Virus record (IMG/VR): IMGVR_UViG_3300023238_000014
Location: 1 to 46,041 of that record
Length of the DNA stretch: 46,041 bases
Direction: 5' to 3' (one strand)
Source of the DNA: a virus
The position numbers were made by a program, and so were the translations under genes. Numbering within the stretch: the stretch's first letter is position 1; the number at the start of each line of letters is the position of its first letter. Under the pieces are notes generated by a model. That model was given only the letters and a program-made list of their open reading frames with translations, searched no databases and had not been told where the DNA came from. Below are positions 7,525 through 40,230 of this stretch, in pieces.

Positions 7525-7554
7525 TATTTGTGTAACCCCTAGTGCTATTAGTAT

Positions 7555-7561
7555 TATTTAT
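7555..7561 (-). promoter_or_regulatory. Putative late promoter (GATAAATA)
   Basis: Minus-strand ATAAATA preceded by G, 31 nt upstream of the ATG at 7524 and just after the stop of the 636-aa gene. It is one of several TAAATA-type motifs placed in structural-gene gaps of this window. Confidence 0.45.
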
Positions 7562-7569
7562 CGTTTATC

Positions 7570-9480: not shown

Positions 9481-9481
9481 G

Positions 9482-11536: not shown

Positions 11537-11546
11537 ATTTTATCCC

Positions 11547-12137
11547 TTACCCTGCCAAACTTTGTACACGTACAGTGTAGTCAATTTGTATTAATCTGTT
11601 AAGTGACTTTTGTACTGGGTGAAAAATAACATGTGTCATTAATCTTCCTGTGCCAGAAGCACTATAACTGCGCAAGCCTAATTCGTCAAAAACATACGGA
11701 CTGTCTGTTGCACTTGCAGTATCAAATGCATCTTGGCCGTTAGGCTCACCGTAATCAAGTAAGCAACTTACAACAATATCACTATAATTTGTTCCGCTAA
11801 CATGCCTAGTTTCTAGCTTATTTCTTGCAGGATCAGTGTTGTTTACGCTTCTGTCATCAACAACCTTAGTATAGGTTTGGTTGTATAGACTTGCATTAGT
11901 TCCTGTGCTATTAGGTGTTAGATACGTGATAATACCAGTTGGATCAACGCTCGTGCCGCCGTTTCCAAAGCTCATTTCATATATAAATCCTGCGCCAGCA
12001 TTAGACAAGCTTTCTGCTAGAGCAATACTCATATTTTCGTAATGGATACTATTTTTCTTGTCTACTAAAATTTCTCCAGTGGCAGGATTTGAAATTTTTA
12101 TAAATCCTTCAATTTTTAAATTATTATTTGTTAGCAC
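11547..12137 (-). CDS. Fibre-associated structural protein with GTG start
   Basis: 196 aa. The start is GTG at 12135-12137, preceded by a strong Shine-Dalgarno (AAAGGAGG, 8 nt away); no ATG occurs until about residue 32. The N-terminal ~35 residues (LKIEGFIKISNPATGEILVD) are repeated in two mini-ORFs upstream at 12778-13014. The rest (IHYENMSIALAESLS, then beta-rich to IQIDYTVRVQSLAG) is the type of conserved structural protein seen beside fibre genes in marine T4-like phages. It overlaps the end of the GIY-YIG endonuclease gene by 14 nt. Normal expression probably depends on the strong ribosome site that lies inside the endonuclease coding region. Confidence 0.65.
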   Translation of the reverse strand: MLTNNNLKIEGFIKISNPATGEILVDKKNSIHYENMSIALAESLSNAGAGFIYEMSFGNGGTSVDPTGIITYLTPNSTGTNASLYNQTYTKVVDDRSVNNTDPARNKLETRHVSGTNYSDIVVSCLLDYGEPNGQDAFDTASATDSPYVFDELGLRSYSASGTGRLMTHVIFHPVQKSLNRLIQIDYTVRVQSLAG

Positions 12138-12777
12138 TTGTTGGGCCTCCTTTGCCTTGGCCGTATTTGGTTAGTGTAAATCCGTCTTTTTGACGATACA
12201 CTCTATTGTAATTATGACCATTGTCTAAACACCATTTTCTTAATCCGTGAACCCACACTGTTTGTCCGTTAGGAGTAACAATTTTCCACTGTAATGCATT
12301 AGAGTTGTTTGATCCAGAAGAACGTATTGACATTTTTTCTTTAGTTTCTTCTGAAACTAATCTTCCTGTTCTTTGATTCGACCACAATTCTTTAGTTTCT
12401 TTCGACGGTTTCCATCCTTTTCTGCTCATTTTCCACGCATCCGAAACAATTTTTTTATTTTTATGTTTCATTCCTTTAACTCCTCCGCCCGGAGCATATA
12501 ATTCAGATTTATTATAAAATTCTTTAGAATGTTTAACATTGTTTTCCTTTAGAAGCCGAGCTTCTTTTTTTCTTAAATCTTTATTATTAATATTTTTGAA
12601 AAACTTTAAAGGTATCTTAACAAAAAATTCTTCTCCAACTTTTTCAATATCTTCTTTTAACTCACGATTACTTCCAAAATAATTATCTCTGTCGTGCTGA
12701 TCTGACCCTATATATCTATAAGGATATATATTGTTTTTTAAATTATACAAGTTTATTGTTTCGTATATCTGGGGCAT
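12124..12777 (-). CDS. GIY-YIG homing endonuclease (Seg-like)
   Basis: 217 aa, ATG at 12777 directly after the TAA of a 32-aa ORF. The N-terminus has the GIY-YIG pattern in a degenerate form (NLYNLKNNIYPYRYIGS, then NYFGSN). Residues about 95-155 hold Lys/Ser/Glu-rich DNA-binding repeats of the NUMOD3 kind (SKETKELWSNQRTG, SEETKEKMSIRSSG). Residues about 160-200 fit a NUMOD1/IENR1-like module (TPNGQTVWVHGLRKWCLDNG). This is the layout of free-standing phage homing endonucleases, which cut alleles lacking the gene. The gene looks more A/T-rich than its neighbours, consistent with separate origin. It is packed without spare bases between the 32-aa ORF and the 196-aa gene. Confidence 0.85.
   Translation of the reverse strand: MPQIYETINLYNLKNNIYPYRYIGSDQHDRDNYFGSNRELKEDIEKVGEEFFVKIPLKFFKNINNKDLRKKEARLLKENNVKHSKEFYNKSELYAPGGGVKGMKHKNKKIVSDAWKMSRKGWKPSKETKELWSNQRTGRLVSEETKEKMSIRSSGSNNSNALQWKIVTPNGQTVWVHGLRKWCLDNGHNYNRVYRQKDGFTLTKYGQGKGGPTSANK
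12135..12153 (-). promoter_or_regulatory. Ribosome binding site and GTG start deciding the 196-aa gene
   Basis: Minus-strand AAAGGAGG (12146-12153), 8-nt spacer, GTG (12135-12137). The site lies inside the last codons of the endonuclease gene and fixes the unusual GTG start. Confidence 0.75.
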
Positions 12778-12876
12778 TTACGCTCGTTTGTTTATAAAAA
12801 TTTCACCTGTAGAAGGATCGTGAATTTTAATGTGACCTTCTACATGTATTCCGTTTAGTTCATTAATCTCTGTCAT
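12778..12876 (-). CDS. 32-aa mini-protein, N-terminal paralogue of the 196-aa structural protein
   Basis: ATG at 12876, TAA at 12778-12780. The core VEGHIKIHDPSTGEIFINKR matches VQGHIKIFDPESQKVYIDKR in the 37-aa ORF upstream and IEGFIKISNPATGEILVDKK at the start of the 196-aa protein, so the coding sense is supported by paralogy although it is very short. It sits behind an ATAAATAC motif (12893-12900). It could be a free small virion protein, or an N-terminal fragment left when downstream sequence was lost or displaced by the homing endonuclease. No function is known to me. Confidence 0.65.
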   Translation of the reverse strand: MTEINELNGIHVEGHIKIHDPSTGEIFINKRA

Positions 12877-12892
12877 GTTTACACCTTATACT

Positions 12893-12900
12893 GTATTTAT
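12893..12900 (-). promoter_or_regulatory. Putative late promoter (ATAAATAC) for the 32-aa ORF
   Basis: Minus-strand ATAAATAC, 17 nt upstream of the ATG at 12876. It is part of a 15-bp sequence (12887-12901) repeated exactly at 13026-13040 before the 37-aa ORF. Confidence 0.55.
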
Positions 12901-13014
12901 TTAGGTAAGCGAATCGTTGCGCTTGTCAATGTATACCTTTTGTGATTCAGGGTCAAATATCTTAATATGTCCCTGAACTAATACTCCGTTTGTGTCTTGC
13001 ATGTTATCGCTCAT
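12901..13014 (-). CDS. 37-aa mini-protein, N-terminal paralogue of the 196-aa structural protein
   Basis: ATG at 13014, TAA at 12901-12903. The sequence contains NGVLVQGHIKIFDPE followed by KVYIDKR, aligned with the 32-aa ORF and the first 35 residues of the 196-aa protein. Differences at synonymous and conservative positions among the three copies suggest real coding. It lies 21 bp after the giant gene's stop. An internal ATG four codons further is possible as start. Confidence 0.6.
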   Translation of the reverse strand: MSDNMQDTNGVLVQGHIKIFDPESQKVYIDKRNDSLT

Positions 13015-13031
13015 ATGTTTTTTCCTATACT

Positions 13032-13039
13032 GTATTTAT
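13032..13039 (-). promoter_or_regulatory. Putative late promoter (ATAAATAC) overlapping the giant gene's stop codon
   Basis: Minus-strand ATAAATAC; its TAA (13036-13038) is the stop codon of the 5091-aa gene. It stands 18 nt upstream of the ATG of the 37-aa ORF. The flanking 15 bp (13026-13040) are identical to 12887-12901. Confidence 0.55.
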
Positions 13040-16000
13040 TCGGGTAGCTCAGATGTTCCGGCACGTAAGAATCTTGCAATGCTATTTTCTGTATCACCTA
13101 ATGATGTACCGTTTGTAGTCCAACTTTGGCCCACTTTTTTCACTACTGTTACTCTTGTATTCTCTGCAGGTGTTGCTAGTAATGTAATTGCATTAGTATT
13201 AGCATCAAATGTAAAGTCTGCTACAACTATAGCATCTCCTTCTGGACTATCTAATGCTGTTACAGGGTTAAACACATCTAACGTAGTCTTACGCATACGT
13301 ACACCTGCCGCAAACACTTCAATCTCATTAATCGATGCTACTGGGTAGCCAATCTCAAACGTTGCTGTAAGACCGTCTACAGTAGCTTTTGGTACATTAT
13401 AAGCTAAAGTTTGATCTTTATATGGAACAGTTTTACTTATGTTCTGATCGTACACCTTGGTATTAATTGTGTGTGACGATTTAACACCAGTGCCCAATGT
13501 TCCTCTACGCAACTGGCGCAATGTATTTTGTTGTTTTACAAAATACTCAATACGTTCGCCGTTAATAAAGATTACACCCGGTAAATTTTGTCCTTTGTTT
13601 GGTTCTGCTAACTCACTTGCATCGTCTAATTCAATTCTTAAATCATAATAATTTAAATCTTGTGCTAGTTTAGCAGGTGCAGTATCTAAACGCTTGAAGT
13701 GTGTTCTGTTTAACATATCCTTGAACTGTCTATATGCAAACTTAGATGTACTAACTGGTGCAGTAAAGTGAATAATGTCTATGACATCGTTTGCTGCTGG
13801 CTGACTAACTAACTGCACTTTTAATTTATCATCAGTTACATAGTAGTCTACGCTAGGCGTTAGCAACTCTCCGTTTACACTTACCCATACATACTGTGCA
13901 TCAACAGCAGGCTTACGTAAAGCAATTTCGCCAACTGTTAATCTGTTATATGTAATATAATCAACATCTGCTTCAATTAAAGTAGTTCTTGTTACTACTT
14001 CATAATTAATACGCTCGAGACCTAGTAAATCATGATTAGTAAATTGAATTACTTCAACAACTGCGCCATTTGCAGGTGCAGTATCTAAAGTAACAGTAGT
14101 TCCGTCAATTCTGTAATCTCCATCTGTAATTACATACATTTCAAGTAAATCGCCTGGAGCACCAATTTCGTCTGCAAGTATAATACTACTGTTTGCAATT
14201 TCAAAACGCCATTGTAGCGGAGTTGTAATTGAAGCCCCATTTAAGAATACCTTAACATCAGAAACATCAAGACTACCTGCTGGGATTTGGAATATCTCCA
14301 TTGGGAATTCTCTTTGGCTACTTGCTGGGATTGTATACTGTATATTATATCCTGCATTTAATATAGCATTGTCTACTTTAACAATTATATTATGTTCTGA
14401 AGGAATAGCATATAATGGTGCATTTGCCAGTGTAAACACAGTGTCAGTGCCGTTGCCAGCAAATGTATCTTTAGTAATTTGACTATAATTAACTTGCGTA
14501 TCTGCTGCGAATACAGTGTAATTAACTACTGCACCAGTAACAACAACTTCTGCAAATCTAATAACTGTCTTAGGAGTTGTTTCTGACTTAAATGCTACAA
14601 CTGGTTGTTGCACACCATTAATGCTTGCATAAACATTTGTGCCTGCTTCCCAATCAACTGTTGTTTCAAAATCAGTAGTTGAATCATCTCCAAACAGTTG
14701 TCCAAAGTCTAGTATGTTTTGTGTACCTTGTGCAACTGTTACAATATTAAGTTCTGCTCCAATAGTTGCAGAGTCTAATGTTATAGTTTTATTAATCCAA
14801 TTAATTGTATAGTTAGTTTGTGGTAATATAACATTGGCAACTTTTACAATAACTGCATCTTTACTGTTTGGTGTAACACCTAAGTCGTAAGTTAATGTAC
14901 TATCCATAGTATAACTTTGACTATGAATAATTCCTTGTCCTGCACTATCTCTTGTAAACACTTTAATGTCTAATGTGTCAAGAATCTGTCCAGGAACTAC
15001 TTCTTCAGGGCCGCCACTTGTAGTAGGAGTAACAAATCCGTCACCATCTACAATAATTTCTTCTGCACTAATACCTTTTGCAGTCGAGTAAGCTAAGTTT
15101 CCTCCGCTTAGTGCAGTATCATAACTGTTAGTATCAGGAATAACACTACCATCACTTGTTGATTTTCTTACAACAAATATATCGTTGTCTAACAAAGTTA
15201 TTTCTAAGTCTTGTACATATATTATGTCGGTTACGCCATCGCCTGTAATACTATTTGTAATAGCATTTACATTAGTTGCAGTTCCTAAACTAAAGTTAGG
15301 ATCGTCAATTCTTACACCGTTTTTATAAAGGTTATAAACAACTCCGGCTACTAGCGGAGCACTTAACTGTACTGCAATTGTCGAGCCGTCTGCTGTAAAT
15401 ACTTCATCTTCAAAAGTACTATCAAACTCATCCCAATTATCTGTATACCAGCCAGCTGTGTCAAATCCAGCTGGACCATCAAAGTCAAAGCTACGTACTT
15501 CAACGCCACCGTAATCTACGCCTGTCATTAACTGTGCTAAGTCTTTACCGTACATTCCTGCAATTGGATTGTAAGCAAATTTAACTCTATCTTCAGCACT
15601 TAGCATACTTAAAGGGATATTATAGTCTATTCTTACAACTGCATTTACTTTTGGGGGAGTTGTGAATAATATCTTACCCTGCTCTCTAATATAAGTTTTG
15701 TCAGTATTTTCGATATTCGCAAATGTGTATTTGCTGCGTAGCTGTAAAATATTATCTACATATACACTAACCTTTTTAGTATCTAAATCCATTGGCCACT
15801 CTAGGAAGAATCTATTTTCAAATCCTGTGCCAGAGAATGTTTCAGATTTTAAAAGTGTAGTAAATGTAAATGTTCCACTTGTTCTGTCAAACTTAATTTT
15901 AACACTTGGACTTCTTACTAATCCGTTACCTAAAACAGCAGTTGCGATTGCAGGCGTGCCGGTTGCTGTTTGTGAGCCTGTTATAACAACTGTTGGCGCA

Positions 16001-19000
16001 CTTGTATATCCTGTACCAGAATTTGTTACTTTAATATTAGTAATTTTTCCATAGCCTAAATATGCTTTTGCTGTTGCGCCTGTTCCGTTGCCGCCAATTA
16101 AAGTAACAACAGGTTCATAAGTGAATCCGCTGCCGCCATTGCCTATTTTAATTCCAGTTATTTGATAACCATGATTATCATTCCAGTTTTTTCTAGGATA
16201 ACTTGTAGTGTCTAAGTTTGCTCTTTTAATTGTGCCGTCTACAATAATTGCTCTACTCGGATCAATTGTGTTAGTAATACTATTATATACTGGAGGTAAA
16301 TCAAAGTCACTAACACTACTATTTGTAGGATCTATTGCATTGTATTCGCTAACAAATTCTCTTAGCTTTGTTGAGTAAGGTTTAAATTCTTCAACAAAGT
16401 CTTGGTAGCTTGCAAGATTATCATTATTAAATGTTATGTCTTTTTGATTTAATGTTTCTCTGTTATGTTTTGCTTTAACAAAACTTGTTTTAAACATCCA
16501 ATCAACTGATTGCTGTTCTGACATTACATAACGCAATGCAGCCATAAACAAATTATTATATTCAACTTCTAACTCGCCTACAAAAATATTATCCCTAATA
16601 GTTTCGAGTATAATTCTTAATTCTACGCTTGGGTTATTATCATAAAAATTACTATCAAAGCTACGGTTGTCAAAGCCTACTGTATTCTTACTGTAATCGT
16701 ACAACGTATCTTTAAATTGGAGTGTGCCGTTTTGACGTCCAATAGTATCGTAATTAATTGTATAGTCTTCAGTATCTTGATTATCTACTTTTATCATTAA
16801 TACCCAGCCGCCAGTTCCTACTGTTTCAATTTTTACAATATTACCAATCTTATTTGTTAGACTAGGCAGTTGATATGAACCTGCTATAGTGTCGTTAATA
16901 TTTGAGAATTGATTATACCCTGTAGCATACCAGTCAGCATAATTCCAATACGATGCTACATTGTAACTTTGTAGTTTTCTTCTATACCATGCTGTTCCGT
17001 TCCACGAATACAATGCCCATTTGTTTTGTATACTTTCGTCTGCGTTAACTAACACAGTAAATGGACGTACAGTAATACTTGCAGTTGCATCATATCCGCT
17101 GCCTGCATTAGTAATAGTAGCTGAAGTAATTTGGCCTAGGTTATTAATAGTAATATCAAATTCTGCTCCAGTACCTTTACCATTAACCTTAAAGCTAGGA
17201 GCTACTTTATAGCCTCTGCCTGCATCAGTAATGTTAATTCTTGATATTCTGCCATTAGTAATTACAGGCGTTAGTGTGGCAGGTGTAATTTTGTTTGTAC
17301 TTACAAATGTAAGTTCAGACAATGTGTCTGTTGCTAAATCATAAGTTTGTGATATTGCAGTTGGTGCAACATCAAGTTGAGTTAATTTAGAAATGTTATT
17401 TTGGTCAACTACAAGATTTTCAGCTAACTTTAAATTTATTCTTTCAATAGTCTGTTTTAGTGCTTCAAATCTATTAGCAAACATACTTTGTCTTGGACGA
17501 TTTTGTACACCATAACGATTTTTAACGGATATAGTTGGATCTGGAACAATTCTATTATTGCTGTCGAACCCAATTAAACTATCAAACCATTTGCGTTCAA
17601 TATCTGCATCAGGTTTGCTTGTTTTCAATCCGTCTGATATTAACTTGTACTGGCTGTGTACATTTTGTACTTTCTTAGGTCCTGTTGAATACTTAATGTT
17701 TAAAACTAAGTCATTGCTATCAATAAACGTGTCGAAGTTATTAAGTACAAACTTACTATCTGAAAGTAAACTTACAAACGGATAACCTTGTGTTCTTGGA
17801 TTCTCAATAAGTGCCGCAACATCACGGATACTTAACTTTCTGTTTTCCATTATAGGTACAGTAACTTTATTAACTACCCAGAAGTAATATACATTGTTAA
17901 ACGTTTTACTAACTTCGTTATATATTATTTTAGTTGAATACTTTTCATCGCCAAATAAACTTGTGCCACTAATTTTAGCTGTAAGTCCGTCTGGAGTATC
18001 TGCTATACTATCCCACACACTAGGAATAAAGTTACTTTGTACCCATTCAAATACATCAATTCTACCATCAGGTGTTAATTTATTCCAGTTATTTTTCTGG
18101 AATGTAGTTGACCCTTGGTATGCATGAGCAAATTTAGCAGAATTAATATTCCACCATACTTGACCAACGTGTGTCTCACACCACGCTCTATTAGGATCAA
18201 CTGAATTATCTAAAAGATTACCTGTATTATATACAGCAGGATCAAACGGAGTTTTAAATGTAATTTCTTGATCAGCTGGGCCTGCAATTTTACCTTGCAC
18301 AGGATCAATATAATCAATATAGCTTACAATGCTGTTTTCTCGTTTGTTGTATAAGAACATGCCTCGAATATTATCTACATCTACTGGGGTAATGCCTTCG
18401 CTAATAACGTTCCATGCAAATGTGTTTTTATTTTTTCTAAAGTCAAGTAGCTGTCCTTTATTGCCGCTTGCGTCTTCTACAGCGCCAACTAGCTGATCTG
18501 GCATGCCAATATAAACGTGGTTGCCGTTAGCATAAATGTTCTCGCCGAATGTAGTTTGTGTTAGTGGATATACAAACTGCTCTGAATATATCAAACTGTT
18601 ATCAATAGTTTCGTATACATAAACAACGCCCTTGTCGAGTTTAATATTTCTAAAGTTTGTAAACTCTCTATCAAAAGTTGTTGTAGTATCTTCAGTTGCA
18701 GTGAATACAGCAACGTCAAACGTTGTCGGAATTGTTTGATCACCGTTTAAACTTGATACTACTAAGTTATCAGTTCCAAAATCTAAGCCAAATCCAAAGC
18801 CTTCACTTTCTTCGTTATTTGGTGGAGTTAGTGTTTGTGTTAAAGTAAATGTACCAGCTGCTTGTGTATAAACATACACAACGCCTTGATTAACTTTATT
18901 TGTATCAGCTAACATTGAACTAATTGCAATCTGTGTTCCTGCAGGATTTAATACAACTTTATCTGCCCATGCTGTAACATTATCTGGTGCAGCTATTATT

Positions 19001-22000
19001 TGATCTAACTGAAATTGGTTTCCAACTGCGCGATAAATTGCAAGTTTTGTATTTGTTGTACTTGTATTATCAGTTTGTGTACTAGTCACAACCAGTACTT
19101 GCGCATCACTACTAACATCGAAGCTCTTACTAAACTCTATTATATTTTCAATAGGATCAAATACAGATTCATTATAGAATGCATTTGCAGTTAAGTTTGG
19201 CAAGTAACCTACATAATCAACATCAGTTGTAACGCTTGACCATGAGTTATTTGATGCACTTGGAACTGCTGCATTAATTGCTATGTTAGTTTTTGCTTTC
19301 CATAGTGCATTACCTTGTACAACTATATTACCTGATCGATAAGTGTATGTATTGTCAAATGTTCCGCGATAGTTTGCATCTTTGCCGTGCTGCCAGCTAA
19401 TTTTATTCCAGTATATTGGATCAACTATAACATTTTGTGATACTGTTGTTACTTTGCGGCAAATATAATAATCGTCTTTATATATTACAATGTCGCCAAT
19501 TGCGTATGCTGTTATTTGGTATTCGCCCTTAAAGCTGTCAGTTGCTTTTGTGCCATGGCGGAATATTTCAATCGAGCCTGGCTGCGATCTTCTGCCTGTT
19601 GAGTCAGTTACTGGTATAGTAGTGTCACTATTACTACTAACTAATAGCGTGTAAAAGTTTCCTGTTTGTACTATTGCAACTTTATCACCAAAGTTTCTAT
19701 TTGCTGCTCTATACTCTGATATTAATACATTTTGGAATCTGTAAGTGCCGTCATTTAATCTTCTGTAAATTGCAACAGCACCTTCGTTTGCTACAGTTGG
19801 ACTTGTTCCTGTTGCGTCAGCAGGGATATTATATACTTGTGTATAATCTTTGTTTAAACTATATGGAGGATTTGATAATCGTTGGACGCCTGCTACTGTA
19901 GTTTCATCAAAGAACCAATATTCTTCATCAACAATTGTTGGTGTGGTAACAATATTAAAGTTACTACTATGTTCGAATACTACTAATTTGCCGACTAGTG
20001 ATGTGCCTAGCACAATGCTGTTATTAATATCTGTTATGGTACCAATTGTACGGTCAGCATCTGTCGCGCCACGTAACGCAACACTTGCCTTTCTGCGAAT
20101 CTGGAAACGTCCAATATTTGATTGTTCTATCCAGCTGCCTGTTGCAATTTTTAGATAAACTCTCACAGCGTTAAAGTTACGTTTTATAAACACAACTTCA
20201 GCAGTACTTGTACTAATTGTTGTTAATGCCAAGCCTCCTGCGCCGTCTCGAGGTGTTTGCACATCTTCAAGAATATCACCAATTTGTGGTTCAAATGCAA
20301 ATCCTTGAAAGTCAAATTCTGTTAATGTAAAGTCAATATAGCCGTCCCATAGATCAACAACGGTTTGTTGCTTGTTTAGAATATCATATGAAAATCCGGG
20401 GCTTGCAACATCAATTACTCTGTTTTCAAGATTGTACAAACGGAACTCTTGTGTTTCACCAATTGTTAAATAATCACTAAATGTCTTACCTACTCTAGCT
20501 ACCCATTTATTACTTGGTAAATCTCTTTCAACGCCATCTTGTGCGTCGGCACCTGCAGGATCTCCTCGATATGATAATTGCTCGATGTAACTTGCTTGGT
20601 TCTTGTTAGTTACATATACACCAATTGCGCCAACAGTATCTTGAATGTTATAGTATTCGTTAAGAGCTCTTACTGATCCTTGTAGTTTAACATCGGCATA
20701 TACCAAGCCTCGGCCGGTATCATAATAGACACTATTATTCGAATAACTAAATCCTGTGCTAATCATCCAGTAGCCATCTATGGCAGTACTAGTAGCATAA
20801 GTCGATTCTTCTGTGTAAAATCCTACAAAATCTAATTCATTAATAAACATTTCACCAGTAACATTAAATACACCATTTGTGTTTTTAACATAAACAACTG
20901 CACTATCTCTACGAGATCCTACATATGCTACTTCTGCACTACCTGTATCAGTTGTTACTATAGATCCCACAACTGGTAATGATACAAAAGTGTCAATAAA
21001 AAATACATGGTCAATTTTTTCAACAATTGTATGATCTTGACTTATAAACTCTGGTGTTAATTCTGGAATTAAGCCTTCAAAAGGAATAAAATTATCTAAT
21101 GTAGGATACGTGTAACTACGTCTGTTCCAGAATAAGTTAATTGTATCGCCGGCTGTTGTGCCAATATACATATCTTTAGGAGCGCGGACTAACATATGAG
21201 TTGTCGAATTTCCTGGCAACCCTGCATCACCTGCAACTAACAAGTTTAAAGTTGTACTATCAGAATCTGCTGCACTTACAAGATTTACATATGTATCAAA
21301 AGTACTAAATGGCTGATTTGCAATCTGTGGAAGTATCGACCTATTAGTTTTCCATAAACTTTCTCTATACCGTACAATGTTATTTTTAGTATACACAGCG
21401 TTTGGTTGGAAGTCAAATGTGCTTGCGCCCGTGCTTGCGTCTGTTTTATAAGTTAGTTTAGTCTTAACATTACTAGCTTGCGGAATACCTACAATAAGAT
21501 ATTCTCCGTCCGGTGATACTGCAACACTTTTTCCAAAGTCAGAATCTGCAATAGCAAACAAGTCATTATTATCTATAATAATTTCTTGGTCTAATAATAA
21601 ATTAGACTGTTCTCTTGTTCTACGGTATACTGAAACTTTGCCGTTTAAGTCATTTGGTGCTGATACAAAAACATTAGTATTGTTTTCGTTTACAGCAATA
21701 CTATCACTAAACCCTTGATCAGTACTGTCATAATCTGAAGGATTTGTAATTGCTTGAGAATTTAAATATACAGAATTATTTTCTAATACTGCCCATTCAC
21801 TCTTATAAGTATCAATCCATAATCGCTGTTTACTATAAATATCTTGATTTGTTGCAGCATTAATTCCTGCAACATTACTTACTCTTATAGTTCTTAGAGC
21901 AGACATTGCAAAACTTCTATTATCTTCAATTGTAAAATAAGAAATGGTGCTGTCAATAGGAACTCTTATTTGTATTTTATTAAGATTAATATTATCAACT

Positions 22001-25000
22001 TCATATAATCCATTAATACTATACTCTTGTGCGCCACGGACGCCAACGTAGTCGCCTACTGCAAATATTCCAGTTACCCACTTATCTAGTGTTAGTTCTA
22101 CTAAACTTAATCCGTTAACTGCAAAAGTGGCAGCAACTGTGTCTGCACCAACTACATTAACAGTTCCTTGTGTTAGTTGCATAACTGTCCAGTTCTTATT
22201 GTCTGTGTCAGTTACCCATATAGTATCACCTAAACTAATTTGGTTAGTATCAACAGTTGCAAGGTCTTCTAAATTGCCAACAATAAAGTCAACATCGTCT
22301 TCGTTAGTATAGCCGCCAGTTCTAATATATTCATTAGTTAGTGTCTTAGTAGGAAACGGTGCGTGAGTATATCCTGCAGGCTTGTCAAATACTTCGTTTG
22401 GTTTAATTCTATAAATCTTATCAAAGTTAGTTTCAGGTATAGCGTTTACAAGCTCAACTGCTTGCGGAGACTCTTGGATATCATCTTGCAGCAAGTTAAA
22501 CTCTACTTGCTGTACATCATCAACTGCACCATAACGACCAACTTGTATTGCCCATTCTTCGTAAAATTCTAAGTTATCAGCAGTATTGCCTAGTGCATCA
22601 AACAGTTTAGTAAACACATTCATTGTGCCTTTGTCTGCAATTGCGCCTCTGTAGAATTTAAACTGACTTACGTCATCATTAATAATGTTAGCAAGGTACT
22701 GGCGCTTTTGATAACCTATCAAATGCTGTGCCATTTTTTGCTGCTCAGTATCAAAGCTATCTGAATCTAAATCATAAAAGTCCGTAAACTGTGTAACTCT
22801 GTAATCAAAGTTAGTCATTAACTGTGACTCAGGCTTTTCACTTAACTGATACCAGTTAGTTGAATTAAAGTTCTGTGACCCTGTAGCATTTATTGTTGCC
22901 ACATAGTAATATTGCTTGTACTTTACAATATCGCCGATCTTATAATCTTTCCACTGAGTCCAATCTGTAAAGCTTGCATCGTCATATACAAATCCTGGAA
23001 TATTTAATCCGCCATTCCAATCATCAGATCTGTAACCGTTAACGCGGATTCGCTCTTGTCTATAACCTGTGCTTGGATTATAAATTGTGTCGTTAAAGTC
23101 TGTAGTATTATCTATTAATACAACGTGTTCTTTTTGTATTAACGGTAAAGACACATGGTATAAGCCTTCGTCAGTGCCAATAGTTTCGATACCAAAACTA
23201 TTTTGATCTCTTAACAGACTATTAAATTCTGAATCTAAAAATAAACCGTCTGCTTTAAGAATACTGTATCCGTAGAAATCGTCTTTAATATTATCAACTA
23301 TAACATAATCTTTTTGGAATTCTAATAAGTTTGCGCCCGGACTTAATGCAATCAGTGAGTTGTTTGCCCAACCTTGTGTTGTCCAGAATAAGAACTGCTT
23401 TGCTGCTTGCTTCCAGTTTTCAACTTCGTTAGATCCAGCAATTACATTCTCAAAACTAAATCCCATCTCTTGTTGTCTTACATTGTAGCCTAAAATAAAG
23501 TCAACGACATCTTGTGCTGTAGTAAAGCGTGTTCCATATTGGACTCTTTTAAGGGATACAGTATTAAAATCTTTCTTAAATGCTGCTGTTCTTCCGCCAG
23601 TAAGAGGAAGTGCAGGAAGCTTAACTATATCGTTAGTGTTAAACGTTGTGTCACTAGTAAAAGAAGTAATAACTCTGTAATATGCATTATTATGCAATAT
23701 TACTTCACCGCTAATGTAGGCAGTATTAGTATCCCAAGGAACTATCTTTTCAGATATGCCGCCAACTGTTACAATATTTGCAGACGACCCAGTTAGTGCT
23801 TCATAATATTCAAAGTATGGCTTTTCTGAATTGTATCCTCTTACAATATAACCTAGTTCAGCTCGTTCTATAATAATACCACTGTATATTGCTAGTTCAG
23901 TAGGACTACTTGTATTTAAAAATACTTGATAGTTTTCTTGTGGGACAAATATACCGTCTTGTGTTAAAGACTGAGTTGGTGATCTGCTGTCTAGTATCAA
24001 ATTAAACTTTTCTTTACTAGTAAATCCAGCAATCTTAACACCAATTTGGTTAGTAATTAGCGACAAGTCAGTTTTATAACTCTTATATACTGATAATATA
24101 TCACTTGCTACAAGGTTATAAATGTAGTTTACTAACCCTGCTGTATTAATTCGTGTAGCTGAATCAAATGTGTTTGGCAATGTTAAATCTTTAATAACAA
24201 TAGGAGCATTTGTATCTATGTTAACCCATTGATTTGCTAAATTCTTAGATATCCTAGAAACATCAAATCCTAAGCCCATTGTTTTAGCAGGTTTATTTAA
24301 CAACATTGCAGTTAGTACAGCAAACGGATACTCGGAGCTTCTGCGCCACGCATTTTCGATTGGTGCATGATCGCCGAATTTAAAGTTTTGTGTTGCACTT
24401 TGTATCTGGAAATCTTTAGCATACTTACTGTTTATCGGCGATAGCAATTTACCGTTACTATCAACTGGTATACAGTTAGTTAATCCAGGGCGAGCATAGT
24501 TGAGATCAATTCTAGTATTAAGAGGATCTGCGATGCGACCTACTTCTAAGTCTTTCCACAAAACTAAGTTGTCGCCAGTGTACGGAGCAGGTCCGTAAAC
24601 TGTGTTCCACCAAGATGGCTTAGTAGAGATGCCAAGCATCTCCCACGGATGGCTGTGAGGACGGTCAGTATCAAATGCTCTAGAATACATGCCTCTCCAG
24701 AATCCCGGGTTTATATTACCGGCTGGTGAAGTAGTATCCTGATAGTTAAATGTCCAATTATTAGTTCTGTCGTAGAACGTATTGTTTGTATAAGTTTGAT
24801 TGTTTAAATTTTGCTGCAACCACTGCGTAAAATCACCAAGCAACGTATTATCTATTTCAGTTTTAGTAAATTCATTAACTCTAAATTCTCCACCGATGAA
24901 AGTATTAACATCTAACCTATCAGTTGAATATTCTGCTTTAATATTATTAAAAATTCTTTTTTCTAGTTCTAATAGTAACTCGTCTCTAAAGTCTTTATAC

Positions 25001-28000
25001 GCTTTAATATAGCTGCCGTCATGGCCCTTAATAAAAGCAACGCCAACTGAGTATTCAGTAACTTCGATATTGTCATTGCCGCCAAGTGTTGCGCCAGCTG
25101 TAGGAATATAAAATATTTTATTCATTCCTGTAAATACATGGGATTTCGATGCAGTACCTGCGCCTGCTGCACTTTTAGCTGTGTACACAGGATAAAACCA
25201 GCCTCTAGTACCAGTTGCACTGTCTTCGCCATATACTTTAAATGGGCCAGTAGTTGTTGGCTCAGCAGCAAGTACAGTATCGTCAATAGTTAGCTCAGGA
25301 TAATACTTTGGAAATAATCCCAGTTTACTAGGAGTAGGAGCAACGAAGCTACCATCAGTATTATTATATTCGTGTATTTCAATTAAATCGTTTTCTATTT
25401 GTCCAGCTTCGATTGTAACATAGCCAGCAATATTAAAATTATAATCTTTCAAATAAGTTAACTGTGTACCATTTAAATATACAGTTGTGCTTGCTGCGCT
25501 CAGTTTAGATAAATTAAAAGTTCCAGTAATTGGATACTCTGTTGTTCTTTTATCTAATATAGTATACGCTATTTTATTAGATGCGCCATCAGGCAGCATG
25601 TCTGAGAAGTAAAAAGGCTGCGACTTTAATTTATCACTATTAATTGTTTTTAATATAAGGTCAACATGTTCTTTAATAGGACCGTCATATCCTAATGTTG
25701 CGGCGGTGTCTAAAAAAGTCTTCTTAAATCTTGAATATTCTTTTTTAGAATATTTTAATGCCTTTACAATATTATAACTTTTATTAGTTACGTGGTACAG
25801 CGGCAAGTTGATTGGGCCGCTGTGTTTAACAAAGCGTTTACCAAATTCATCTAGGTCACCTAAATCACGCAAGTTACTTGATCCTAAGTAATTACCGGCA
25901 TATCCTGGAATATCTTCTAGCATACTATCAACGTGATCTATTACTTCACCAAGTGTGAATTGGTTAACATCATCGTTTAGAGGATTGCGTTCTAAGTTAT
26001 ACGGAAACTCGTAATAGCCATTAGAATTTTTAATAGCTTTACTGTCTGTTTTAATTTTAATAACATCAGTGGCTACTAAATCTTTTACAAATGTAATAAC
26101 TGCATTGGCTTTAGTTTTATCAATTGTGTAATCAGTAGTTATTAATTGTAATTTGTTATTGACAAACACAACTACTTTTAAATCTGCAATACTACTCGAG
26201 TTATCGTAGACATTAATTTCAAAGTTATTAACCTGAATGGCAGTTGCAGCATATTCGTTTATAACATACTGTTTACTAATAGTAGGCTTGCTACTAAATC
26301 CATTTACATAAGCAAATTTAGTAAGTGAACTATATTTCTTTAAATAGCCGCCATTAATTTTTTGTGTGTATAAATTATCATCTGTTTGGTAAGTAAATGT
26401 ATCTGACAGTAAGTTAAAATCAAATACAATATCACCTGAGTTATTAATAGACTTATAATCTAGTGCAAATCCTAATTCAGTGTCTACCGTTCCTGTGCCT
26501 ACAGCATATGAAAATAACTTAGTACCGTTAAACGTAGTTGATCCATAATAAGTTTCATTGCTGTAGTTGTTACCATTTGTGTCGCATAATTCAAATGTAG
26601 GAGCTTGATTACGTGTTGTTTTTTCTTGTGCAGTAGTCCACTTAGCGTTATGGTAGTGATAACTCTTACCTGCATTTTTTACACCTTGTGTAATTAACAC
26701 TGTTTCAAGATCGATAGGTAATGTATCAGTAGTTTCAATTAAACTAAGCTGTCTGTTATTTCCAATGTTAACAAATTTAACTTGGTATATTTTTCCGCTT
26801 ACTAATGCATCAGTATCTGCTGTGAACAAAATACGCATATTATCAGCAAGATTAATGCCGTCAATATTATATCCTATTTGTCCTTCAATAGTACTAAACA
26901 CATCTGTAGTAAATGTATCAATTAAGTCAACATCTTGTTTAGCATATGCTCCGAAGTTGTGTAGCTTTAAGCCTGCTTCAAATTCTATAATAGGACGTTT
27001 CGCTCTATTTTCTTCGTTAACATTTCTTGTTAAATTATTAAGTTCAAAACTCTTTAAAATTACATCTTTGTGGTGCCATCTGTTGTAGCGACTCCAGGCG
27101 TTTCTGTCTGGTGTTGCGCGGTTAATGACAATGTAGTCTTTATTAGTTGCATATGCAGTTGCATCAGAAAATGGCATAGTGTCAAAGTTATCAGCATCAA
27201 ATGCTATACGATTAATATCACTGTATGCAGCTGGAATAATTAAATCTTGATCTTTAATTAATTTAATTTTGTCGCCGACTCCTTCTACATACCAATCGTT
27301 AGTGTTATATTCAGCAGGCAATACATCGCCTTGGAATTTAACTTTCATTCCGTTAGATAACGCAACGCCGTTTGCACTAGTATAAGTTTTCTTACCTAAT
27401 ACATCTTCGCCGATATTAAGAAATGTATTTTCTTCAATGTCATAAATTTTAATAAAGTTACTTGTATCGATAGCATTTTTACTAATATAATATAGTACGT
27501 CAGGAGCGTTTGATGGAATAGTAAATTCAATTGCTCCCTTTTCAATATAACTAAGAGTTGTAACATTACCATCTTTGTCATACACAGTTATACCGTCAGT
27601 ATACAATGTACTAACATTAGTGTCAACTGTCGCGCCTGGAGTAAACGTTCTACTAAGAGCAATTGACATAGGATGTCCAGGTGCATCTATTTCAAAACGG
27701 TATGTTTGTCCTCGGTAAAGATTTAATTCTGGGTTACGTATTAATCCGTCGTTAAATATGTAAGCAATATTATCGCCTTGGTCTTCAGTAGTTACAGTGT
27801 ATGTGCTAACAACATCTCTACTCTGTCCTCTAACTTGTACACTAAGTGGACCGTTTGGCATCCAGTAGTACTCGCGGAAGTTTACAAACTTATCCCAATC
27901 TATGCTTGGATTCCAAGCATATGTTTCTTGGCTGTTTAAACGACTGTGATTATCTACGCTTGCGCCATATACACCAAGTTGCCCTATGTAGTCATTGTAG

Positions 28001-28311
28001 TCTTTATAAAAAGTTATATTGTCATAGTTATCTTTAATAACTGTCGCTGGTTCTAGCTGATAGTTAGTTCTATTAGCTGATACATCATCAATATAGTTGT
28101 CAGTTACTTTATATGCTTTAGCAGTTGTTCTACCATAATAACCATTTATCTTTTCAGCAACACCAGGTTGTATAAGTTGGTCAAGTGTGCCTTGCAAAAA
28201 CTTTTTGTTAGCTTGTGTTCTAAAGAACTTAGGTAAAAAGTCACTTGCAGTGATTTTATTATTCTGTCCTGGAACAGGTAGTGCGCTTTCGTTTTGATCA
28301 TTCTTAGCCAT
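13036..28311 (-). CDS. Giant 5091-aa virion protein (baseplate/fibre-associated)
   Basis: One uninterrupted 15.3-kb frame, ATG at 28311 overlapping the gp6 stop (TAATG). The N-terminal ~170 residues (SDFLPKFFRTQANKKFLQGT) probably attach it to the baseplate. About 195-220 is a cupredoxin/YHYH-like strand (LYRGQTYRFEIDAPGHPMSI). CBM5/12-like segments occur near 1525-1550, 1780-1800, 2932-2955 and 2985-3010 (pattern Y-x-x-G-[DEN]-[IV]-V, aromatic, Y or W). FG-GAP-like propeller blades lie near 2197-2275 (SDFGKSVAVSPDGEYLIVG) and 3100-3275 (FGENIYANGNHVYIGMPD). Gly-rich 'GSGY' repeats are near 3702-3742 and 4055-4112. The C-terminal domain (~4905-4945) has GVIFINGERIEYF and LRQLRRGTLGTG. No protease or hydrolase motif is evident. 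Position between gp6 and the fibre genes fits a large wedge-attached fibre or shell. In T4 this slot holds gp7, gp8 and others; I cannot show homology to them. Confidence 0.8.
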   Translation of the reverse strand: MAKNDQNESALPVPGQNNKITASDFLPKFFRTQANKKFLQGTLDQLIQPGVAEKINGYYGRTTAKAYKVTDNYIDDVSANRTNYQLEPATVIKDNYDNITFYKDYNDYIGQLGVYGASVDNHSRLNSQETYAWNPSIDWDKFVNFREYYWMPNGPLSVQVRGQSRDVVSTYTVTTEDQGDNIAYIFNDGLIRNPELNLYRGQTYRFEIDAPGHPMSIALSRTFTPGATVDTNVSTLYTDGITVYDKDGNVTTLSYIEKGAIEFTIPSNAPDVLYYISKNAIDTSNFIKIYDIEENTFLNIGEDVLGKKTYTSANGVALSNGMKVKFQGDVLPAEYNTNDWYVEGVGDKIKLIKDQDLIIPAAYSDINRIAFDADNFDTMPFSDATAYATNKDYIVINRATPDRNAWSRYNRWHHKDVILKSFELNNLTRNVNEENRAKRPIIEFEAGLKLHNFGAYAKQDVDLIDTFTTDVFSTIEGQIGYNIDGINLADNMRILFTADTDALVSGKIYQVKFVNIGNNRQLSLIETTDTLPIDLETVLITQGVKNAGKSYHYHNAKWTTAQEKTTRNQAPTFELCDTNGNNYSNETYYGSTTFNGTKLFSYAVGTGTVDTELGFALDYKSINNSGDIVFDFNLLSDTFTYQTDDNLYTQKINGGYLKKYSSLTKFAYVNGFSSKPTISKQYVINEYAATAIQVNNFEINVYDNSSSIADLKVVVFVNNKLQLITTDYTIDKTKANAVITFVKDLVATDVIKIKTDSKAIKNSNGYYEFPYNLERNPLNDDVNQFTLGEVIDHVDSMLEDIPGYAGNYLGSSNLRDLGDLDEFGKRFVKHSGPINLPLYHVTNKSYNIVKALKYSKKEYSRFKKTFLDTAATLGYDGPIKEHVDLILKTINSDKLKSQPFYFSDMLPDGASNKIAYTILDKRTTEYPITGTFNLSKLSAASTTVYLNGTQLTYLKDYNFNIAGYVTIEAGQIENDLIEIHEYNNTDGSFVAPTPSKLGLFPKYYPELTIDDTVLAAEPTTTGPFKVYGEDSATGTRGWFYPVYTAKSAAGAGTASKSHVFTGMNKIFYIPTAGATLGGNDNIEVTEYSVGVAFIKGHDGSYIKAYKDFRDELLLELEKRIFNNIKAEYSTDRLDVNTFIGGEFRVNEFTKTEIDNTLLGDFTQWLQQNLNNQTYTNNTFYDRTNNWTFNYQDTTSPAGNINPGFWRGMYSRAFDTDRPHSHPWEMLGISTKPSWWNTVYGPAPYTGDNLVLWKDLEVGRIADPLNTRIDLNYARPGLTNCIPVDSNGKLLSPINSKYAKDFQIQSATQNFKFGDHAPIENAWRRSSEYPFAVLTAMLLNKPAKTMGLGFDVSRISKNLANQWVNIDTNAPIVIKDLTLPNTFDSATRINTAGLVNYIYNLVASDILSVYKSYKTDLSLITNQIGVKIAGFTSKEKFNLILDSRSPTQSLTQDGIFVPQENYQVFLNTSSPTELAIYSGIIIERAELGYIVRGYNSEKPYFEYYEALTGSSANIVTVGGISEKIVPWDTNTAYISGEVILHNNAYYRVITSFTSDTTFNTNDIVKLPALPLTGGRTAAFKKDFNTVSLKRVQYGTRFTTAQDVVDFILGYNVRQQEMGFSFENVIAGSNEVENWKQAAKQFLFWTTQGWANNSLIALSPGANLLEFQKDYVIVDNIKDDFYGYSILKADGLFLDSEFNSLLRDQNSFGIETIGTDEGLYHVSLPLIQKEHVVLIDNTTDFNDTIYNPSTGYRQERIRVNGYRSDDWNGGLNIPGFVYDDASFTDWTQWKDYKIGDIVKYKQYYYVATINATGSQNFNSTNWYQLSEKPESQLMTNFDYRVTQFTDFYDLDSDSFDTEQQKMAQHLIGYQKRQYLANIINDDVSQFKFYRGAIADKGTMNVFTKLFDALGNTADNLEFYEEWAIQVGRYGAVDDVQQVEFNLLQDDIQESPQAVELVNAIPETNFDKIYRIKPNEVFDKPAGYTHAPFPTKTLTNEYIRTGGYTNEDDVDFIVGNLEDLATVDTNQISLGDTIWVTDTDNKNWTVMQLTQGTVNVVGADTVAATFAVNGLSLVELTLDKWVTGIFAVGDYVGVRGAQEYSINGLYEVDNINLNKIQIRVPIDSTISYFTIEDNRSFAMSALRTIRVSNVAGINAATNQDIYSKQRLWIDTYKSEWAVLENNSVYLNSQAITNPSDYDSTDQGFSDSIAVNENNTNVFVSAPNDLNGKVSVYRRTREQSNLLLDQEIIIDNNDLFAIADSDFGKSVAVSPDGEYLIVGIPQASNVKTKLTYKTDASTGASTFDFQPNAVYTKNNIVRYRESLWKTNRSILPQIANQPFSTFDTYVNLVSAADSDSTTLNLLVAGDAGLPGNSTTHMLVRAPKDMYIGTTAGDTINLFWNRRSYTYPTLDNFIPFEGLIPELTPEFISQDHTIVEKIDHVFFIDTFVSLPVVGSIVTTDTGSAEVAYVGSRRDSAVVYVKNTNGVFNVTGEMFINELDFVGFYTEESTYATSTAIDGYWMISTGFSYSNNSVYYDTGRGLVYADVKLQGSVRALNEYYNIQDTVGAIGVYVTNKNQASYIEQLSYRGDPAGADAQDGVERDLPSNKWVARVGKTFSDYLTIGETQEFRLYNLENRVIDVASPGFSYDILNKQQTVVDLWDGYIDFTLTEFDFQGFAFEPQIGDILEDVQTPRDGAGGLALTTISTSTAEVVFIKRNFNAVRVYLKIATGSWIEQSNIGRFQIRRKASVALRGATDADRTIGTITDINNSIVLGTSLVGKLVVFEHSSNFNIVTTPTIVDEEYWFFDETTVAGVQRLSNPPYSLNKDYTQVYNIPADATGTSPTVANEGAVAIYRRLNDGTYRFQNVLISEYRAANRNFGDKVAIVQTGNFYTLLVSSNSDTTIPVTDSTGRRSQPGSIEIFRHGTKATDSFKGEYQITAYAIGDIVIYKDDYYICRKVTTVSQNVIVDPIYWNKISWQHGKDANYRGTFDNTYTYRSGNIVVQGNALWKAKTNIAINAAVPSASNNSWSSVTTDVDYVGYLPNLTANAFYNESVFDPIENIIEFSKSFDVSSDAQVLVVTSTQTDNTSTTNTKLAIYRAVGNQFQLDQIIAAPDNVTAWADKVVLNPAGTQIAISSMLADTNKVNQGVVYVYTQAAGTFTLTQTLTPPNNEESEGFGFGLDFGTDNLVVSSLNGDQTIPTTFDVAVFTATEDTTTTFDREFTNFRNIKLDKGVVYVYETIDNSLIYSEQFVYPLTQTTFGENIYANGNHVYIGMPDQLVGAVEDASGNKGQLLDFRKNKNTFAWNVISEGITPVDVDNIRGMFLYNKRENSIVSYIDYIDPVQGKIAGPADQEITFKTPFDPAVYNTGNLLDNSVDPNRAWCETHVGQVWWNINSAKFAHAYQGSTTFQKNNWNKLTPDGRIDVFEWVQSNFIPSVWDSIADTPDGLTAKISGTSLFGDEKYSTKIIYNEVSKTFNNVYYFWVVNKVTVPIMENRKLSIRDVAALIENPRTQGYPFVSLLSDSKFVLNNFDTFIDSNDLVLNIKYSTGPKKVQNVHSQYKLISDGLKTSKPDADIERKWFDSLIGFDSNNRIVPDPTISVKNRYGVQNRPRQSMFANRFEALKQTIERINLKLAENLVVDQNNISKLTQLDVAPTAISQTYDLATDTLSELTFVSTNKITPATLTPVITNGRISRINITDAGRGYKVAPSFKVNGKGTGAEFDITINNLGQITSATITNAGSGYDATASITVRPFTVLVNADESIQNKWALYSWNGTAWYRRKLQSYNVASYWNYADWYATGYNQFSNINDTIAGSYQLPSLTNKIGNIVKIETVGTGGWVLMIKVDNQDTEDYTINYDTIGRQNGTLQFKDTLYDYSKNTVGFDNRSFDSNFYDNNPSVELRIILETIRDNIFVGELEVEYNNLFMAALRYVMSEQQSVDWMFKTSFVKAKHNRETLNQKDITFNNDNLASYQDFVEEFKPYSTKLREFVSEYNAIDPTNSSVSDFDLPPVYNSITNTIDPSRAIIVDGTIKRANLDTTSYPRKNWNDNHGYQITGIKIGNGGSGFTYEPVVTLIGGNGTGATAKAYLGYGKITNIKVTNSGTGYTSAPTVVITGSQTATGTPAIATAVLGNGLVRSPSVKIKFDRTSGTFTFTTLLKSETFSGTGFENRFFLEWPMDLDTKKVSVYVDNILQLRSKYTFANIENTDKTYIREQGKILFTTPPKVNAVVRIDYNIPLSMLSAEDRVKFAYNPIAGMYGKDLAQLMTGVDYGGVEVRSFDFDGPAGFDTAGWYTDNWDEFDSTFEDEVFTADGSTIAVQLSAPLVAGVVYNLYKNGVRIDDPNFSLGTATNVNAITNSITGDGVTDIIYVQDLEITLLDNDIFVVRKSTSDGSVIPDTNSYDTALSGGNLAYSTAKGISAEEIIVDGDGFVTPTTSGGPEEVVPGQILDTLDIKVFTRDSAGQGIIHSQSYTMDSTLTYDLGVTPNSKDAVIVKVANVILPQTNYTINWINKTITLDSATIGAELNIVTVAQGTQNILDFGQLFGDDSTTDFETTVDWEAGTNVYASINGVQQPVVAFKSETTPKTVIRFAEVVVTGAVVNYTVFAADTQVNYSQITKDTFAGNGTDTVFTLANAPLYAIPSEHNIIVKVDNAILNAGYNIQYTIPASSQREFPMEIFQIPAGSLDVSDVKVFLNGASITTPLQWRFEIANSSIILADEIGAPGDLLEMYVITDGDYRIDGTTVTLDTAPANGAVVEVIQFTNHDLLGLERINYEVVTRTTLIEADVDYITYNRLTVGEIALRKPAVDAQYVWVSVNGELLTPSVDYYVTDDKLKVQLVSQPAANDVIDIIHFTAPVSTSKFAYRQFKDMLNRTHFKRLDTAPAKLAQDLNYYDLRIELDDASELAEPNKGQNLPGVIFINGERIEYFVKQQNTLRQLRRGTLGTGVKSSHTINTKVYDQNISKTVPYKDQTLAYNVPKATVDGLTATFEIGYPVASINEIEVFAAGVRMRKTTLDVFNPVTALDSPEGDAIVVADFTFDANTNAITLLATPAENTRVTVVKKVGQSWTTNGTSLGDTENSIARFLRAGTSELPE

Positions 28312-31300
28312 TAGTAACTATAGCCTCCACCGTTAGAACCACTTGATCCCGAACCACTTGATCCCGAACCACTTGAATTTGTGTTTAGCCCGCCGCCTAG
28401 TGACAACGTTGTTGCAGGTGTCGATGCACTGCTTGATATTCCTGATGTTATGCTAGTTGCAACAGTGTTAATTACTGTTCCGCTAGCTTGTAAATTAGTT
28501 GCTGTTAATTGATCAATTGTTTCGATATCACTCACCTTCGCTGCACTTGCAAATATTTCATCTGGCTCACTCTTTATTTCAAATAGACTACCAAACGATT
28601 GTGTTGTTTGGCGCGGTACTATTAGTATACTTACCAGTTTTGGTGACAGCTGGTTTATAATATAGGCGCTAAGTTCTTGGAAGTAAAATGTCTCTCCAAA
28701 GTCCCAATTTTCAATATCAAAGAATTTATTAATAGCTTCAATAATGTCTGATTTAAGTTCGTTGTCATTGGTAACTACACCAGCATTTTTAACAATCTTA
28801 AATTTAACTTGCAGATCTGCTGGGGCTTTGTCGCCAAATAAGATTTTATACTTTGCAGGGTGATAGATAACTTCGTCACTTAAACTTTTTATTTTGTTTA
28901 TTTCTCTGCCATAGCTTCTAAATAATTCATCATTACTAGGAGGCTTAGGCTGTACTAAAAGTGTTCCAGCAACATATTGCTTTACTTGCATGTCGTACGC
29001 TTTAGATAAAATATAAGTATCAATAATGTTACTTGCACTTGGATCAATTCTATAGCCACTGTCTGCAACATGTACATAATGGAACTTTAAATCTGCTCTG
29101 CCAAAGAATGCTTTATAGTCTGTATTAATTTCTGTATTGTTTAGTAGTTTATTAAGCTTCCTAAAAATACCTTCGTTAATTAAGTAAAATATTTGTCCTT
29201 CTACTCTAGCACTGTACGGAGCAATAGCTGCTTCGTTTTGTACTACAATAATTTCAGCAGTTGTGTTTGCAAAATATTTAAAATCTTCTACACCGTCAGT
29301 TGTGGTGTATTTCTTTTGGAATATTAATTTGTCTTTTGTAAGAATAGTTGTATCTTCTTCGCCGACAATTTGCTCAAAAATATCAGGATCATCAACTACA
29401 CCGTCATCATCAAGGTCAATAAATTGAACTTGAATTTTACGACTATCTAAGTATCCTTCAGAATCTCTATATGCATCAGTAATTGTCCAGTTATAGTCTG
29501 ATGTGAACGGAATTAATTGTCCAGGCTTACGGTTAATATTTAATATATCAATTTTGTCTCTAACAATTTGTCCTGTTGACGGATCATAAATCTTATCAGC
29601 AGCGTCAAAGAAAAATCTAATTTCGTCTGCGCTTTCCATTACATATCTTAAATTTCGATATGTAATTGTATATTTTTCGCCGTCTGTTTTAAAGTATAGC
29701 ATCCAGCTTGAATCTAAATTAGCACCTGTTATGTCGCCTGCTTTACCAGTAGCAAATGCATTAAGTGTGTTAATGTCTTGTGCTAATACTAGTTTCCACT
29801 GTCTGACATATTGATCGTAACGTAGTGCAAAATCCTTGTATTCAAATGTTTGGTCAATTAATTGTGTCTTTATGTCATTAATTAATACTTTAGAAAAATT
29901 TGGTATAACTTGCTGTAGTACTGCGCCTGTCGGTATAACATCGTTTACTGAAATAGGAGCAATGCCATCTTCGTCTATTACTGTGCCGTCTCCTGTTACA
30001 GAAATTAACTTACACCATTTGTATGTTGTTTTTCCTAAATGGTCTCCGCTACTGCTGTCTTCCATTAATGTGCCGTCGGGCATAAAGTGCTTGCCAGTAG
30101 GAGCAACAAACTTCAACATCGAGCCTGCTTCTAATAATCGCAAACTATTAGCAGTAAACGTACCTACAGTATATGCATTACTATCAGTATCTTGCAATAG
30201 ACCTAATGATCTATTTGTACTTGTGCTAGATTGAGACCAAGTTGCGTTAAGATCACTTACTATAATTTTTGGATATTTTGCTAGATAAAAGTTCTGTGCA
30301 GTTGCACTACTTAATATGCTTTCAATAGTATTATATATAATACCTTCAATGTCAGTTTGTGTTGCAAAAGTAAATGATTGTTTTTCGGCAAATTCTTCTT
30401 TATAAATTATGCCGTCATCTGCAAACAAACTAGTATTTGAATACTTGCCGCTTGCATCCTTTAAGTCAAAGAACCGACTTATTCCACTTGAAATTCTATT
30501 CGAACTTTTAGTTTTAATAATGTCTTGGCTAATTGCTAACGGACCAATGTTATAATCTTCGCCAGTAACTAAACGGTTTTGTGTATAATATGTTGCTGGT
30601 GCATTTTGTTTAATTTCTGCACTAGTTTCTGATGCGGTACCGTTACTAACTGTGTAATTTAATTTAAGACCAACTGTAAGTGTTTGCGCTGAGCCGTTTC
30701 TCGACTGGTACGGAATATCAATGCTTACTGTTCCTACTGCACTAGGAGTAATCACACTACGTAGATTATTGCTAGTCCTGTAATACGATCTAAAGTTGCC
30801 AGTAGCTAAGTTTCCAAACACACCATCACTAAAGTTTAAATTAATTCTGTCGCCAATGCGTGTTGTTACAGCAAATACGTCTCTAGTTTTATTAAACAAA
30901 CTATTATAGATAACGTTATTGCCTTCAGTAGAGTCAATTTTTGTCCACTCACTGCTTTCAAAGCCTGCACTATTTAATGCAAATAACCATACATCACTGT
31001 CGTTAATATTTTCAGCATCAATTTGTACTGCTTGATTTGGAGTTGGATTACTTACTGCAAAGTTTCCTGTCTCAAGTTTACCTTGACGGAAATGCATAAA
31101 GAATCCAGTGTTATTACTACCAGCTCCTTGTCCATCATCTCTAAACAAAAATGCAGGACTGTTGCCAGGCAGTGGCGCTTCCTCTAACACGTTTTCGCCT
31201 GATATGTCAGTACTTACTACTTCAAAACGTGTGCTTACCCCTTCAACACGTTTAGTAAACGGGTAAATTGCTTGCCCAGTGTTTGTAGCATTTAAGCGAT

Positions 31301-39052: not shown

Positions 39053-39053
39053 A

Positions 39054-40201: not shown

Positions 40202-40224
40202 AATTATCTTGTCTCCTATACTAC

Positions 40225-40230
40225 TATTTA
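40225..40230 (-). promoter_or_regulatory. Putative late promoter (CTAAATA) for the baseplate operon
   Basis: Minus-strand TAAATA preceded by C, 24 nt upstream of the gp48 ATG. It lies about 40 bp from the divergent early promoter of gp55. It deviates from the T4 core at the first bases. Confidence 0.45.

Follow-up and report, generated by a model that had tools for sequence, protein, structure and literature searches.

The viral contig IMGVR_UViG_3300023238_000014 (positions 1-46,041 of the IMG/VR record, 46,041 bases, hereafter the window) carries on its minus strand a giant gene, 13036-28311, that runs from an ATG at 28311 to a TAA stop and encodes a protein of 5091 amino acids, with a computed mass of 567 kDa and an isoelectric point of 4.7. 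A preliminary description of this DNA had noted a single 15.3-kb frame of about 560 kDa filling about a third of the window; we recovered exactly this frame (33% of the window) and add its strand, which had not been given. The frame cannot be a product of chance, as a random frame of this length has a log10 P of about -176 at the base composition of the gene. Guanine plus cytosine content shows a strong gradient across the three codon positions (45/38/23%), a GGAGG lies upstream of the start, and the stop codon of the preceding gene, a homologue of the baseplate wedge gene gp6, overlaps the start codon (TAATG). A tandem repeat with a 15-bp unit, present in 2.7 exact copies (28336-28376, minus strand), lies close to the 3' end of gp6, just before the start of the giant gene. 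Across eight relatives, the ratio of nonsynonymous to synonymous substitution rates (dN/dS) was 0.10-0.18 overall and 0.08-0.23 across all blocks of the gene; because it is low in every block, the whole length is under constraint. Furthermore, among 28 close relatives (66-99% identity), every stretch of 50 residues is 54-97% identical. These results confirm that 13036-28311 is a real, intact gene under purifying selection throughout.

We found that the giant is no orphan: by profile similarity it belongs to PHROG 10938, a family found in RaK2-like and Atu_ph07-like jumbo phages and labelled 'virion structural protein'. Its N-terminal 2000 residues match this family with an E-value of 2e-225, and its middle and C-terminal thirds match as well. 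Three blocks are common to all isolate homologues examined, namely block A (residues 1-900, 25612-28311), block B (residues 1090-2000, 22312-25044) and block C (residues 3290-4060, 16132-18444), with more variable modules between and after them; the window giant has a significant profile match to the family over all three blocks in order. A tblastn search with the N-terminal half matched 84 phage records. Isolate homologues include PA5oct gp355 (3857 aa), Atu_ph07 gp180 (4449 aa), Phosso (4555 aa), SCTP-2 (3807 aa), RaK2 ORF070w (3326 aa), 121Q gp582 (3323 aa), Vibrio phage 2.275.O (3771 aa) and CBB_236 (3340 aa), which match profiles of the three blocks with E-values from 1e-92 to 1e-244. In Atu_ph07 (38163-44324 of its stretch) and Phosso (36885-44009), a run of radical SAM genes lies a short distance beyond the giant and the genes behind it. 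Block B is encoded by at least 569 viral contig stretches. Among 150 such stretches that we fetched, 66 complete relative open reading frames (ORFs), counted from stop to stop and with their upper length bounded by the 10-kb flank, are 4441-5345 aa long, so the size of the giant is typical of its clade. It is thus a large but unexceptional member of a group about which little is understood. Two homologues have been detected in virions by mass spectrometry: PA5oct gp355 is annotated with an electrospray ionisation tandem mass spectrometry note, and CBB_236, which adjoins the CBB gp6 homologue, gave 21 unique peptides and 7.7% coverage in purified virions (PMC5259590). Both detections support the view, already taken in the preliminary description, that the window giant is a virion protein.

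The surroundings of the giant gene are of T4 type. Immediately upstream lies the gp6 homologue (28311-31859, 1182 aa, phrog_10646 with an E-value of 5e-291), preceded by a homologue of the sheath initiator gp25 (31918-32358), a gp5-type hub/lysozyme with a VgrG3-like C-terminal domain (32375-34861) and a baseplate wedge subunit in the gp53 position (39054-39353, phrog_7145, placed by gene order against T4 and RaK2), all on the minus strand. Genes for the late sigma factor gp55 and for gp47 and gp46 are on the opposite strand. These homologues around the giant show that 'T4-like phage' was the right call in the preliminary description, and its placement of the giant among the T4 wedge genes likewise holds, as the gene follows gp6. 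We therefore regard the giant as a probable baseplate protein in the tail of a jumbo phage related to T4.

The position next to gp6 recurs across the family. The giant gene directly follows gp6 in the window and in seven isolates (PA5oct, Atu_ph07, Phosso, RaK2, 121Q, CBB and Vibrio phage 2.275.O). gp6 was present in 15 of the 15 viral contigs checked, and it was adjacent to the giant in both contigs whose coordinates were compared. The slot immediately after gp6 is the one expected of a wedge protein of the T4 gp7 or P2 gpI kind, and it is held by a gp7 of 1032 aa in T4, 5195 aa in P-SSM2 and 3007 aa in S-SSM7. In the phage XM1 the corresponding protein, gp17, has only 242 residues as against the 1032 of T4 gp7, and it binds tail spikes (PMC10457771); TssF/TssG of the type VI secretion system match a heterotrimer of the (gp6)2-gp7 type (PMC6300606). 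Since this module is common to several contractile systems (PMC10457771, PMC6300606), the phage most likely needs a gp7 equivalent, for which the giant is the positional candidate. We thus propose that the giant is the gp7-equivalent wedge protein of the RaK2/Atu_ph07-type jumbo phage baseplate, a reading to which we assign a probability of about 0.6. This proposal is the only part of our analysis that goes beyond existing annotation.

From seven T4-like gp7 proteins together with cyanophage gp7 N-termini, we built a profile that covers the latter half of the gp7 core, and scanned it against a full-length family profile (57 sequences, 4541 columns). The top match fell on residues 1869-1915 (22567-22707, minus strand) with a score of 30.4 (P 0.009), and the next match scored 20.6. 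Against an alignment of the motif from 53 sequences, the score was 29.0 (P 3e-4). Sixty column-shuffled decoys reached maxima of 24.3 (family profile) and 24.8 (motif alignment), and the reversed profile reached 20.2 and 10.2; the T4 and cyanophage segments were chosen guided by a motif seen by eye, so this decoy test was not fully blind. The matched segment, predicted to be helical in a low-confidence structure, reads approximately YL-x(n)-FY-x-G-x-I-x(2)-KGT followed by EEWA and YG; it changes little among isolate homologues, and its KG pair is invariant across those that were aligned. Within the jumbo-phage loci, the gp7-core profile had no significant match to any other ORF. A short match to P-SSM2 gp7 (22 columns, P 7e-5) was dropped as low-information once the alignment was read, and the viral-contig relatives of P2 gpI were too nearly identical to serve as a profile. 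A feature looked for in wedge proteins of the T4 gp7/P2 gpI kind is a set of core-bundle and trifurcation helices with a KG(T/I) signature; profile-to-profile comparison against decoys was positive for it, and the Pfam, single-sequence and structure-based checks were negative or of low confidence. Together, these data make residues 1869-1915 a suggestive, not a proven, gp7-core motif.

Several observations weigh against a gp7 equivalent. The core match spans about 45 residues and appears only between profiles, as a hidden Markov model (HMM) of the gp7 core misses the motif in single sequences, and Pfam gave no gp7 or tail-protein-I match there. An AlphaFold2 (AF2) model of the motif alone was poor (predicted local distance difference test score, pLDDT, 61; predicted template modelling score 0.28), and a fold search with it, which returned no PDB match, is meaningless. 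No block of the giant aligns to full-length T4 gp7. The PHROGs database files PHROG 10938 under head and packaging. Finally, the SCTP-2 giant gene does not adjoin gp6. In this Salicola phage (10609-19899 of its stretch), a 3096-aa gene precedes the giant and gp6 lies elsewhere, a case of broken synteny.

The lack of significant full-length gp7 similarity and the SCTP-2 arrangement would also be expected if the giant were a peripheral baseplate or tail protein that binds gp6 with no gp7 equivalence, and if another, unrecognised protein completed the wedge core. Room for such a protein exists among the unassigned ORFs between gp5 and the gp53 position (34863-39052), with the 370-aa and 1025-aa upstream products as candidates, or among genes beyond the window. 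However, the gp7-core profile picked the KGT motif of the giant above all decoys and nothing else significantly, and the gene order reproduces the gp6-gp7 order of T4 and cyanophages; we therefore consider a peripheral giant unlikely, while still the most serious competitor of the gp7-equivalent reading. The 370-aa ORF itself (34863-35975, minus strand), flanked by the gene for the gp5-type hub and the structural gene of 1025 aa, had no significant Pfam or PHROG match.

The make-up of the giant is that of a modular composite, as the preliminary description had suggested, and the CBM-like, propeller-like and Gly-rich elements named there are confirmed. An FG-GAP (propeller-type) repeat at residues 3156-3191 (18739-18846) scored 28-30 bits against a Pfam cut-off of 23 and is found in 27 of 29 aligned members. 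CBM_5_12 fell below its cut-off in the window protein (E-value 1e-4) and is found in 28 of the 29 members, with a best E-value of 7e-11. We located CBM5/12-like modules as follows: residues 1526-1555 (23647-23736; E-value 0.005, below cut-off, and 0.016 to chitinase A1), a weak one at about residues 1788-1827 (22831-22950) with a resemblance to one in P-SSM2 gp7 as well, residues 2301-2321 (21349-21411), and about residues 2930-2975 (19387-19524), recognised by its pattern and, at an approximate position, by a profile match to All3316 (7b5h; E-value 7e-4). A second pattern of the last type lies at about residue 2991. Gly-rich GxGY repeats occupy residues 3682-3742 (17086-17268), where they are shared with cyanophage gp8 and gp7 (P 7e-5 against S-SSM7 gp8), and residues 4050-4114 (15970-16164). 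Among more distant relatives, as many as about 39% leave a segment at about residues 2250-3150 unaligned. PDB sequence searches gave no match for blocks A and C or the C-terminal region, leaving block A with no known fold by sequence, and only CBM-type modules for block B and residues 2020-3290. An AF2 model of residues 1090-2010 was of fair quality (mean pLDDT 73), and its fold matches were the CBM5/12 module 1ed7 (template modelling score 0.73, within block B) and members of its own family; no gp7 was among them. The cupredoxin-like strand of the preliminary description was not recovered, as no cupredoxin match was found in the giant.

Carbohydrate-binding-like and propeller-type modules, together with fibre-like FxGxG repeats in the C-terminal region, are what a long host-contact arm or receptor-binding protein might carry, and the preliminary description had offered such an arm as one option. 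The conservation of the protein argues otherwise. Among the 28 close relatives, the last 1000 residues show the same degree of conservation as the N-terminus, their dN/dS is 0.12-0.20, and the tip lacks hypervariability; this evenness disfavours a receptor-binding arm. A CBM5/12-like module also matches All3316, which is a baseplate protein of a contractile injection system. In addition, separate tail proteins are encoded downstream: three consecutive paralogues (6040-7524, 7570-9480 and 9482-11536, all on the minus strand) share their N-terminal part. The first of them after the giant gene, a Collar-domain protein (9482-11536), was found in 19 of the 20 related contigs, most of which also have paralogues after it. 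These proteins are better host-contact candidates than the giant, for which we hold such a role to be improbable. The product of 6040-7524 has a C-terminal Peptidase_G2 match (autoproteolytic chaperone type) exactly at the Pfam cut-off.

An end-to-end fusion of gp7, gp8, gp9 and gp10 equivalents would account for the large size, the gene position and a window with no clear gp8. However, T4 gp8, gp9, gp10, gp11 and gp12 matched nowhere in the family profile (best P 0.14), so a fusion of this kind is not supported. Blocks A, B and C gave no signal against T4 gp7 and gp8 with single- or multi-sequence profiles, and HMMs of the giant's regions, run against T4 and against cyanophage gp6-gp8 and the following ORFs, gave only weak matches, at the Gly-rich repeats. 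The sole gp8-linked matches are to Gly-rich repeats in cyanophage gp8, and repeats of this type match several further families of virion proteins as well. We judge a fusion very improbable; the ordered gp7/gp8/gp10 alignment that the preliminary description had named as the case against its own proposal was looked for and not found. That proposal, a composite replacing several T4 baseplate and fibre proteins, is not supported, as nothing aligns to T4 gp8-gp12 and collar/fibre-type genes still follow (6040-11536).

Between these tail genes and the giant lie a gene for a 196-aa protein (11547-12137, minus strand, phrog_11259), with similar-sized genes after the giant in several isolates, and, immediately behind the giant, a GIY-YIG/NUMOD3-type homing endonuclease gene (12124-12777, minus strand). 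Near the end of the window, 45045-45491 (plus strand) matches phrog_447, labelled 'NAD synthetase', with an E-value of 1e-40; it matches homing-endonuclease families too, and the PHROG label appears to be an error.

On the gp7-equivalent reading, each wedge would combine two gp6 chains with one copy of the giant into a central (gp6)2-gp7 core. The core contact would be made by a short helical segment at about residues 1840-1960, with blocks A and B before it and the propeller, CBM-like and beta-repeat modules after it. These parts on both sides would form the outer wedge body and dock the separate collar/fibre proteins encoded downstream. Going further, we tentatively suggest a one-chain wedge, which we rate as possible but somewhat doubtful. 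Here a gp7-type core about 1870 residues into a 5091-residue chain would have gained modules on both sides that form the outer baseplate with no separate gp8-like subunits, and one small core would have been expanded twice, separately, into the giant gp7 proteins of cyanophages and into those of jumbo phages. If so, the giant would account for about 3.4 MDa of the baseplate at six copies, a number assumed from T4 gp7. Members of the family are abundant in viral contigs and found in many cultured jumbo phages, and their annotation goes no further than 'virion structural protein' or 'hypothetical protein'. Placing them in the gp7 slot with a defined residue range would give one of the larger phage proteins a better annotation and would make the structural question directly testable in culturable phages (PA5oct, RaK2 and 121Q).

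Compared with the isolate giants of PHROG 10938, the window protein shares homology in blocks A, B and C, the KG motif, gp6 adjacency and the probable status of virion protein; it is longer, and the extra length falls mainly in the poorly conserved residues 2000-3290 and the C-terminal repeats. With T4 gp7 it shares the slot after gp6 and the candidate core motif with its KG signature, whereas the T4 protein is five times shorter and has no other alignable part. The cyanophage gp7 proteins (PSSM2_111, 5195 aa; SSSM7_101, 3007 aa) differ from it in blocks A, B and C, which have no detectable homology to them apart from the repeats, and in the position of the core, which lies in their N-terminal residues 1-250 and, as a candidate, at about residue 1870 in the window giant. 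S-SSM7 (9562-28656 of its stretch) carries two gp7-annotated genes, of 3007 and 3001 aa, separated by a gene of 340 aa, possibly a natural split or duplication relative to the single 5195-aa gp7 of P-SSM2. What the window giant and the cyanophage proteins have in common is the slot after gp6, the size class, Gly-rich repeats, a weak CBM5/12-type module and a KG motif.

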